From contig NZ_SOEE01000007.1 of assembly GCF_004366035.1 (NCBI RefSeq), positions 62,001 to 126,000 of the forward strand: 64,000 nucleotides of DNA, written 5' to 3'. The translations under genes were made by a program, and so were the position numbers. Positions 4,602 through 53,892 of the stretch are shown here, piece by piece (positions within the stretch are counted from its first letter, which is position 1; each line of letters opens with the position of its first letter). This stretch comes from Cytobacillus oceanisediminis (GTDB lineage Bacteria > Bacillota > Bacilli > Bacillales > Cytobacillaceae). The notes beneath the pieces were generated by a model. It was not told the origin of the DNA. It saw only the letters and a list, made by a program, of their open reading frames with translations, and searched no databases.

Positions 4602-4676
4602 TGTTTTCATTATATTAATATATAATTTTATTGGGCAGGACATTGATCAATTGATGTGCTGTGGCAATAGATTTTA

Positions 4677-4743
4677 CCTGTATATGTTCAGAGATAGGGT
4701 CTGAGCGTTTCTACCGGGCTGCCGTAAATAGCTTGACTACAGG
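4677..4743 (+). promoter_or_regulatory. Purine (guanine-class) riboswitch aptamer
   Basis: The P1 helix is CCTGTA (4677-4682) with TACAGG (4738-4743). Between them lie the invariant GTTTCTACCGGG and CCGTAAAT blocks. The ligand-pairing base in GACTAC is C (4737), which specifies guanine/hypoxanthine; adenine riboswitches carry U there. It controls the downstream NCS2 purine permease. Confidence 0.95.
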
Positions 4744-4793
4744 GGATATAGCTTGTTCGAATCGGCATGCTATTTTCTTCTGTTTCTTATGGC

Positions 4794-31664: not shown

Positions 31665-31673
31665 ATATTAAAT

Positions 31674-31700
31674 GGCCCTCCTTTCAGAAAGGAGGGCCAA
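31674..31700. terminator. Terminator between fumC and the spore-protein gene
   Basis: TGGCCCTCCTTT and AAAGGAGGGCCA form a 12-bp stem. A T-rich tail follows on the minus strand (for ssp), and the hairpin may also end fumC transcripts. Confidence 0.75.
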
Positions 31701-31731: not shown

Positions 31732-31950
31732 TTAGAAAGAACCGCCGCCAAGCTGTTGTTCAGCCATTTGTACAAGGCGTTTTGTGATTTCTCCGCCAAC
31801 AGATCCGTTAGCGCGAGAAGTTGTTTCTGCACCAAGGTTTACACCAAATTCAGTAGCGATTTCGTACTTCATTTGATCAAGTGCTTGTGCTACTCCTGGT
31901 ACTAGTAATTGGTTTGAGGAATTGCTTCTGCTAGATGATTGGTTGTTCAT
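31732..31950 (-). CDS. Alpha/beta-type small acid-soluble spore protein
   Basis: A 72-residue DNA-binding spore protein. It carries the GPR protease site in [13 protein letters not shown] (cleavage between E and I) and the conserved C-terminal block [20 protein letters not shown]. These proteins coat spore DNA and supply amino acids at germination. The S/N-rich N-terminus is variable as usual. ATG 31950 follows GAGGAGGAAATCAC. A cloverleaf-forming sequence lies 41 bases upstream on the same strand. Expression in the forespore (sigma-G) is expected from the family. Confidence 0.97.
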
Positions 31951-31990
31951 GTGATTTCCTCCTCGAAATATAAGTGTTGGTTTTTTGGTT

Positions 31991-32051
31991 GGGTTAGCTG
32001 GAATTGCACCAGCGCAAGGATTATGTCCTGCTCCACTGCCTGGCGTAACCC
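31991..32051 (-). ncRNA. tRNA-like cloverleaf in the leader of the spore-protein gene
   Basis: On the minus strand: outer stem GGGTTA (32051-32046) with TAACCC (31996-31991); a small arm CCA...TGG; an arm AGGA...TCCT; and a 5-bp, 7-base-loop arm GCTGG TGCAATT CCAGC. That last arm has the geometry and most consensus bases of a tRNA T-arm (T54, C56, A57, A58, pyrimidine 60; only base 55 deviates). AACCA follows the outer stem. At 61 bases, with weak D and anticodon arms, it is not a normal tRNA. It is either a tRNA fossil or a structured leader or small RNA. Confidence 0.5.
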
Positions 32052-32244
32052 ATCGTTTATTTTGCTGGTGCTTGATGCCGCTTTGTTACTCTCTATTATG
32101 TTTGATTTATAAAAGTTTATTCTTTTAGCAAATCGGGAATTTTTTCCTGAAAAGACTTTCTGATTAGGAGTTTTACATAACGAAGCTTAAAAAAACAAAC
32201 CATATTAAATATCAGCTAAGTTAACGAAAGTGAGAGGATTGGAA

Positions 32245-43601: not shown

Positions 43602-43802
43602 CTAGCGTGCTCCGCCAAGCTGCTGCTCAGCCATTTGCACCAGGCGCTTTGTGATTTCTCCGCCTACTGATCCATTTGCTCTTGAAGATGTTTCCGGACC
43701 AAGGTTCACACCGAATTCTGTTGCGATTTCATACTTCATTTGATCAATTGCCTGGCTGACTCCTGATACTAAAAGCTGATTAGAATTGCTGTTTCTTGCC
43801 AT
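43602..43802 (-). CDS. Alpha/beta-type small acid-soluble spore protein, second copy
   Basis: A 66-residue paralogue of the protein at 31732. The GPR site [13 protein letters not shown] and the block [19 protein letters not shown] are identical or nearly so; the N-terminus and last residues differ. It coats DNA in the forespore. ATG 43802 follows AAAGGAGATG. Unlike the other copy, its leader shows no cloverleaf. Forespore-specific expression is expected from the family. Confidence 0.97.
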
Positions 43803-47751: not shown

Positions 47752-47860
47752 CACTAGAAATGATAGCCGTTCACCTGCACTTCCCCACGCTGGTATTATC
47801 CAGATCGGGTGATAAGAGTCAGAACGGATTGTTCTTCTCAGCCAAAAAGCTCCCCTAGTG
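47752..47860 (-). promoter_or_regulatory. TPP (thi-box) riboswitch
   Basis: On the minus strand the outer stem CACTAG/CTAGTG encloses GGGGAGC, GGCTGAGA, ACCC, GATCTGGATAATACCAG and CGTGGGGAAG, the invariant blocks of the thiamine pyrophosphate aptamer. TPP binding should favour the terminator and switch off ykoFEDC. Confidence 0.97.
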
Positions 47861-47892
47861 CAAAATAAGATATGCAGTTTTTTATTGACTCC

Positions 47893-53532: not shown

Positions 53533-53892
53533 TCAGATAACTGTCCAGCTCCACATGGAACGCTTCGATAGCATCTTCATCGCACGACTAAGAGCATTAG
53601 CTTTTAGGAGGAGCGCCTCCCCTTCGAGGTCAAAAGCTTATCTTGTTGCGGTTCCTAGGGACTCGGGGTCATAAGCCGTTTTCTTTTAGAAAGAAAACAC
53701 CTTCTTACAGGAACCGTCTTAAGCATGGCATCCCTGAGCAGTCGCCTCATACATTTCGGACAATCCACCCAAAAAGGCAAAGAACGCCTTTCAGGTAGGC
53801 TCGCCTTGAGCTTGAGGCCCCCAGGATGGGGGTCATGCAGACGTTGCCATTTAGTCTGCGTTCCTCAGTGGCAAGGCGCCTCCGCTTTTCTT
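53533..53892. repeat. Intergenic repeat family A, long copy
   Basis: Begins CAGATAACTGTCCAGCTCC and ends CGCCTCCGCTTTTCTT, the usual borders, with internal CCCCTTCGAGGTC and several GC-rich inverted segments. At about 360 bases it is the largest copy here. It fills most of the gap between yhaR and yhzC. Elements with these borders are common in Bacillus-like genomes. Confidence 0.65.

Follow-up and report, generated by a model that had tools for sequence, protein, structure and literature searches.

What is a sequence that can fold like a tRNA doing directly upstream of a spore-protein gene? The initial annotation of a 64,000-nucleotide stretch of Cytobacillus oceanisediminis DNA (contig NZ_SOEE01000007.1, positions 62,001 to 126,000; hereafter the window) described such a sequence on the minus strand ahead of an ssp gene, and suggested a tRNA fossil, a mimic read by tRNA enzymes or a structured leader of the spore-protein mRNA. 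We located the sequence exactly and found it as described, with corrections. The pairing GGGTTA/TAACCC of the outer stem is real, but the stem has 7 bp rather than 6, formed by TGGGTTA (32046-32052) and TAACCCA (31990-31996). The letters AACCA reported after the stem are there; because the stem is 7 bp long, they are parsed as A72 followed by the discriminator A73 and CCA, which together form an unpaired tail (31986-31989). The full element, from acceptor position 1 through the A of CCA, is 67 nt long (31986-32052). It scored 89.4 and 77.5 bits with the covariance models R1 and R2, both of which include the window sequence. From 32052 to 31986 the order is TGGGTTA, two bases, a D-like arm CCA-GGCAG-TGG (32033-32043), one base, an anticodon-like arm GCAGGACATAATCCTTGC (32014-32031), a T-like arm GCTGG-TGCAATT-CCAGC (31997-32013), TAACCCA, A and CCA. 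As annotated, the T arm has 5 bp and a 7-nt loop with a single departure from the tRNA T-loop consensus, which is G for U55, and the anticodon region is degenerate: its loop is no anticodon loop, and among relatives the length of the arm is highly variable.

The gene that follows on the same strand (31732-31950) encodes an alpha/beta-type SASP of 72 amino acids (PF00269 match, 81.2 bits). Its ATG (31950) lies 35 bases from the CCA, with a Shine-Dalgarno sequence GAGGAGG in between (31958-31964). Upstream of the element we noted GAATA (32118-32122) and, 17 nt further on, CATAATA (32094-32100), which resemble the -35 and -10 of a sigma-G promoter. A start site placed from the -10 would give the transcript a presumed 5' extension of 32053-32087 ahead of the element. 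A loose form of this sigma-G-like pattern fits 67 of 87 leaders with the element, a figure that stands without a chance control. One terminator-like hairpin was found 3' of the gene (31673-31699; mean of 0.5 in shuffles). The 160-base leader has only one match in its own genome, and we therefore rejected a mobile repeat. In the same genome, one of the eight SASP-family loci has the element upstream. A second SASP-family gene in the window (43617-43781, minus strand; contig 105617-105781) is without a tRNA-like leader. Other RNAs of the window at Rfam gathering score were a purine riboswitch (4658-4759, plus strand), a TPP riboswitch (47765-47866, minus strand) and a Bacillaceae-1 RNA (53818-53870, minus strand).

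Programs that search for tRNAs did not recognize the element. ARAGORN reported no tRNA and no tmRNA in the window, and no tRNA in the element loci L032 and L039-L067. The Rfam tRNA family RF00005 gave no match at gathering score in the window, none up to E 10 on 31900-32230 and none up to E 1 in 10 element loci. No other Rfam family gave an acceptable match to the element in these searches; a match to RF04354 in one locus (L208, E 0.95) overlapped the element in antisense orientation, was far below the cut-off and was discarded.

We then asked whether the cloverleaf is the structure that the RNA adopts. Taken alone, the window sequence is unconvincing as a structure, since the cloverleaf is not its minimum-energy fold and it is equalled or surpassed in folding by 13 of 200 shuffles (z -1.71). 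When relatives were folded singly, the cloverleaf was the minimum-energy fold of L022 (z -2.96), L031 (z -3.74) and L030 (z -3.54), and it was not that of L024 (z -2.21). In a second set of relatives it was the minimum-energy fold in 4 of 4, including a B. subtilis-type leader (L266) whose SASP protein is presumably SspB. RNAalifold, applied unprompted to 19 distinct elements of the genus, returned exactly the cloverleaf as consensus. Three measures exceeded every shuffle in this set: the covariation score, the share of paired cells and the count of cells changed on both sides. No excess over shuffles was seen for pairs with two-sided change (2 vs 1.7) or for further pair types (7 vs 7.9). Inside the genus alone the covariation signal is thus weaker, with two of five measures not above shuffles. 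A competing pairing of GCTGGTG with an upstream CACCAGC was rejected as not kept, CACCAGC occurring in 3 of 30 genus leaders (L002, L009 and L010).

The initial annotation had proposed a search for compensatory changes among related genomes, and these were found in a wider alignment, A2, of 91 matches drawn from 87 sources. Near-identical loci were excluded from it (L003-L015, L017, L019-L021, L023, L026, L028, L046, L048, L050, L054, L056, L162, L164, L190 and L197). In A2, 97.2% of cells pair, compared to 83.0% in shuffles, and two-sided changes occur in 232 cells (53.5 ± 8.2 in shuffles; at most 29 in slid controls). They affect 16 of 19 pairs (10.6 in shuffles) and all four helices: 6 of 7 acceptor pairs, both core pairs of the D-like arm (a third pair shifts among species), all 5 pairs of the anticodon-like arm and 3 of 5 pairs of the T-like arm. 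Because the shuffles ignore kinship and A2 was fitted to a covariance model, we recounted the acceptor and T stems without a model or gaps, by fixed distance from both ends of the element. Pairing was present in 76-87 of 87 elements at each acceptor position and in 81-87 of 87 at each T-stem position, with pair exchanges such as UA to AU at 1-72, GC to AU at 4-69 and UA to CG at 51-63. Note that four second copies were dropped before all 87-element counts (bases and pairs, tRNA identity and information per position). We are nearly certain that the 5' leader of a single alpha/beta SASP gene here encodes a conserved tRNA-like RNA.

To what genes is the element attached? The genus was searched with leader and gene as query, and the best 30 loci came from 30 of 36 genomes. 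Each of them has the element, and its CCA is intact in every case; the presence of the SASP gene follows from its inclusion in the query. We also searched R1 in 299 genomes of the order. The 29 best matches besides that of the window are each followed closely by an alpha/beta SASP ORF, and CCA is present in 29 of the 29 best matches outside the own genome (scores of at least 51 bits). A SASP ORF follows in 57 of 57 further matches among those listed with lengths other than 77-79 nt. Matches of 77-79 nt were left out as presumed tRNAs, tRNA-Gln being confirmed for those of the own genome only, so that true elements of this length were passed over. Among 44 genomes of another genus, that of G253, the best 30 matches precede a SASP ORF in 30 of 30 cases.

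Pattern scans, which require only the stretch from the T arm to CCA (plus a Shine-Dalgarno sequence in scans for the G55 form), gave a similar picture. In genomes of named species 82 stretches were obtained, of which 80 were listed; 79 of these 80 have a SASP ORF, and the remaining stretch (L075) ends 44 nt past the match. The genera include Cytobacillus, Mesobacillus, Neobacillus, Rossellomorea, Robertmurraya, Anoxybacillus, Heyndrickxia, Lederbergia, Parageobacillus, Aeribacillus, Metabacillus, Siminovitchia and Peribacillus. The G55 pattern with Shine-Dalgarno sequence occurs in 84 of the 299 genomes of the order and in 38 of 117 genera (0 in the reversed control among the rows listed). Of 398 genomes sampled from the phylum, 4 contain it, each a member of the own order; U55 forms are missed by this pattern. 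All 39 loci fetched from these order and phylum searches, that of the window included, precede a SASP gene. A class-wide model search (E up to 1e-4) gave, among the matches listed, none shorter than 77 nt outside the order; matches of 77-90 nt were taken as tRNAs from their length. Thus, the element appears to be widespread in the order, and not to be in all of its genera as judged by the G55 pattern, which misses U55 forms. A few loci deviate: L077, L093 and L096 lacked a 5' acceptor strand by a simple rule (L093 was later fully matched by R2 over 131 nt), L177, whose element is identical to that of L077, has C1-A72, and L308-L310 show no obvious 5' acceptor strand in the stretch inspected. 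In every locus with downstream DNA the element lies 16-140 nt from the SASP start, and these sets, which overlap one another, contain no copy without a SASP gene. The annotated possibility of a structured leader of spore-protein mRNA is therefore supported, the element being tied to alpha/beta SASP genes.

Next, we analyzed which features of a tRNA have been kept. Among the 87 elements, U54 is present in 86, C56 in 81, A58 in 86, a purine at position 73 in 87 and CCA in 84. The 7-bp acceptor, the 5-bp/7-nt T arm and the N73-CCA of a functional tRNA are all there. Not kept are U8 (6 of 87), the 7-nt anticodon loop and the arm lengths. At position 55, G occurs in 72 elements and U in 14; this replacement of U55, together with the usual lack of U8, may make for an abnormal elbow. 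The unpaired RCCA matches the helices in conservation. It is present at its place in 84 of 87 elements, in 0 of 87 at each register shift from -3 to +4 and in 3-4 of 87 at +5 to +7. The three exceptions, L165 (AAA), L193 (CCC) and L202 (CCG), are natural tests of the role of CCA. Note that the covariance model used for collection contained CCA, and counts near threshold are biased for this reason. The borders of the element are sharp: information is 1.52 bits at C(-3), compared to 0.07-0.44 bits further upstream, and 1.31-1.91 bits across RCCA, compared to at most 0.94 bits after it. U is absent at positions 74 and 75 in 87 of 87 elements. The flanks are A-rich, with 44% A and 24% C in the 20 nt upstream and 58% A and 2% G in the 12 nt past CCA, and the median distance from the end of the element to a Shine-Dalgarno-like site is 17 nt. 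In conclusion, the element corresponds to the upper half of a tRNA joined to a lower half that varies, and selection acts strongly on its acceptor stem, T arm and RCCA tail.

Immediately 5' of the element (32053-32055 in the window), C(-3) is conserved in 78 of 87 elements and a purine at -2 in 83 of 87, followed by any base at -1; neither conserved position has an evident pairing partner.

In some leaders the element is duplicated. Two elements in tandem precede the SASP gene in 13 of 18 loci inspected, the 13 being from named Mesobacillus, Neobacillus, Bacillus and relatives (L071, L073, L074, L085, L088, L089, L095, L097, L109, L119, L120, L126 and L145); the 18 were chosen from 80 for long spacers or arms, and the fraction is therefore no rate. 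The first copy ends in GCCA in 13 of 13. The second copy lacks CCA in 13 of 13, and its T loop is the canonical TTCRA. This asymmetry fits the idea that the outermost copy alone would be presented to RNase P.

What might read such a structure? The conservation of the shape across many Bacillus-type bacteria suggests that a tRNA-maturation enzyme acts on a sporulation message. The RNase P RNA of this genome is of class B and carries GGU in a loop that we take to be L15. PMC4919913 describes RNase P as gauging the length of the acceptor/T stack and base-pairing its L15 with the RCC at the 3' end. According to PMC12710915, viral tRNA-like structures and further RNAs with RCCA are also cut by the enzyme, one non-tRNA substrate having required 3' RCCA. 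RNase Z of B. subtilis, as described in PMC10100781 and PMC4919913, acts on precursors that lack CCA, which is an antideterminant for it, and its activity is enhanced when a U lies no more than 2 nt from the discriminator. The conserved features of the element appear from their sequence to be those that RNase P and tRNA-end enzymes read: the acceptor/T stack and 3' RCCA of an RNase P substrate are present, in a host with GGU in the presumed L15. A freely varying anticodon arm is expected if the top half alone is read.

On this basis we propose that the SASP leader is a false pre-tRNA. The forespore sigma-G transcript would start ~35 nt upstream of the element, leaving a short 5' extension. RNase P would clamp the acceptor/T stack, with its L15 loop pairing with RCC, and would cut at or near position 1, or merely bind there. 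CCA would serve as an antideterminant for RNase Z, so that fold and coding region stay joined. The mRNA would thereby have, or gain, a compact tRNA-like 5' end, a 'cap' resisting 5' exonucleases, with the A-rich Shine-Dalgarno linker left open, and the outcome would be a stable and well-translated SASP mRNA late in sporulation. That some tRNA-end enzyme recognizes the element is likely. The false pre-tRNA as a whole is the explanation that we tentatively prefer, with confidence near the balance point, and RNase P cleavage as proposed is predicted slightly more hesitantly. We count against it that CCA is missing from three elements and from all second tandem copies, that G55 prevails, and that C(-3) is conserved, for which we know of no RNase P reason. 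The deviating minimum-energy folds of the window sequence and L024, the CCA in the collecting model and the uncontrolled sigma-G count are further points against it.

The readings of the initial annotation were thus borne out in part, as an enzyme-read mimic and a structured leader together, the mimic resting on the match between conserved parts and what tRNA-end enzymes read. The fossil was rejected. A decaying tRNA-Gln gene would account for the silence of ARAGORN and for the degenerate core bases and anticodon loop, but strong covariation (two-sided changes at 16 of 19 pairs), an unpaired RCCA kept across many genera and a fixed site before SASP genes leave it practically no probability. 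Descent from tRNA-Gln is a different matter and, by sequence comparison, plausible. The five secondary R1 matches in the own genome with E below 0.01 are all tRNA-Gln(TTG) genes; the secondary matches of R2 are the same five, followed by two at tRNA-Trp positions. In an anchored identity comparison with 37 own-genome tRNAs, of which seven called without CCA were misanchored, tRNA-Gln ranked top (26.2 of 35) and tRNA-Trp next (23.8). U1-A72, a determinant for GatCAB, is kept in 81 of 87 elements. The element might accordingly imitate tRNA-Gln and bind a protein of Gln-tRNA synthesis, GatCAB or GluRS, with SASP translation or stability responding to that protein much as in the E. coli thrS operator. 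However, the likeness comes largely from UGGG/CCCA, and no anticodon is kept, so that GluRS has nothing to read. Moreover, the 1-72 pair is A-U in 5 of 87 elements (L194, L201, L203, L207 and L212) and C-A in one, and the flipped pair speaks against a strict tRNA-Gln identity role. We consider this regulatory mimicry unlikely.

Similarly improbable in our view is a plain stability hairpin, a 5' shield against RNase J1/Y recruited from a tRNA with no tRNA enzyme acting. The element's place near the presumed 5' end, the A-rich linker and the lack of a terminator-like site between element and gene in the window agree with such a shield, but any hairpin would serve, leaving the unpaired RCCA, U54, C56, A58 and the 7+5 bp geometry unexplained. 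The pre-tRNA-like ends with encoded CCA could also point to excision of a discrete small RNA of tRNA-like form, for which the SASP mRNA would be a mere host transcript; according to PMC10100781, exonucleases mature the 3' ends of CCA-encoding tRNAs in B. subtilis. The invariable position 16-140 nt before a SASP start, the short distance to the Shine-Dalgarno-like site and the lack of SASP-less copies in the sets make excision still less probable. A multi-arm conserved leader on one gene class could, finally, be a ligand-sensing or T-box-like switch controlling SASP transcription or translation, and T-loop modules do occur in riboswitches. But no terminator-like site was found between element and gene in the window, making attenuation less likely, no shared pairing over the Shine-Dalgarno sequence was evident by eye in the aligned genus leaders, and Rfam gave no T-box or other riboswitch match over the element in the window, in 31900-32230 or in 10 element loci. 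A switch is therefore a very doubtful alternative to the false pre-tRNA.

Comparison with known systems sets the element apart from each of them. It resembles bacterial tRNA-Gln(UUG) in its 7-bp acceptor starting with UGGG, 5-bp/7-nt T arm, purine discriminator and CCA, but lacks an anticodon loop, rarely has U8, mostly has G55 and is located inside an mRNA leader. The E. coli thrS leader also has tRNA-like arms, its operator mimicking the anticodon arm of tRNA-Thr for the cognate synthetase; in contrast, the element has lost the anticodon and keeps the acceptor/T half. In the tRNA-like domain of tmRNA the D arm is reduced and the lower half is replaced by another helix, as in the element. That domain likewise represents the top half of a tRNA (PMC3985003), whereas the element is without the alanine identity pair G3-U70 (GU in 1 of 87, GC in 85 of 87) and its 3' side runs into the SASP gene. 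Viral 3' tRNA-like structures of the TYMV type are CCA-ended tRNA mimics too, and are cut by RNase P according to PMC12710915; unlike these, the element is a bacterial mRNA 5' leader and a cloverleaf without pseudoknot. T-box riboswitches are leader RNAs connected with tRNA, but they bind a tRNA rather than imitate one, and the element has no Rfam T-box match.

Among the papers listed from the open-access literature, subscription papers and preprints being mostly outside this scope, we found none that describes SASP leaders with a tRNA-like element. The main text of a 2010 survey of structured RNAs (PMC2864571) contains neither 'spore' nor 'acid-soluble', and the sole open-access paper with both 'small acid-soluble' and 'tRNA-like' is an origin-of-life theory paper (PMC6617141). 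In one study, unlike an earlier one, the abundant mRNAs of dormant spores did not include those of sspA and sspB (PMC7407066). According to PMC10100781, very few mRNA targets have been supposed for B. subtilis RNase P.

A long-studied class of sporulation genes, to which the common forespore reporter sspB belongs, thus carries a conserved leader RNA structure. A far-reaching version of the proposal, which we think improbable when taken as one joint claim, is that each transcript combines two functional RNAs, the message for the spore protein and an RNA resembling tRNA-Gln, with a CCA end, that is processed or bound by RNase P and perhaps by exonucleases, the CCA enzyme, EF-Tu or GatCAB, and that the state of tRNA maturation in the closing forespore sets the amount of DNA-protecting protein. 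If RNase P reads the element, it would add to the few supposed mRNA targets of this enzyme in B. subtilis, and the leader would be a bacterial, cellular counterpart of the viral tRNA-like structures. Whether the reader is RNase P or another tRNA enzyme, tRNA maturation would be linked to the protection of spore DNA.
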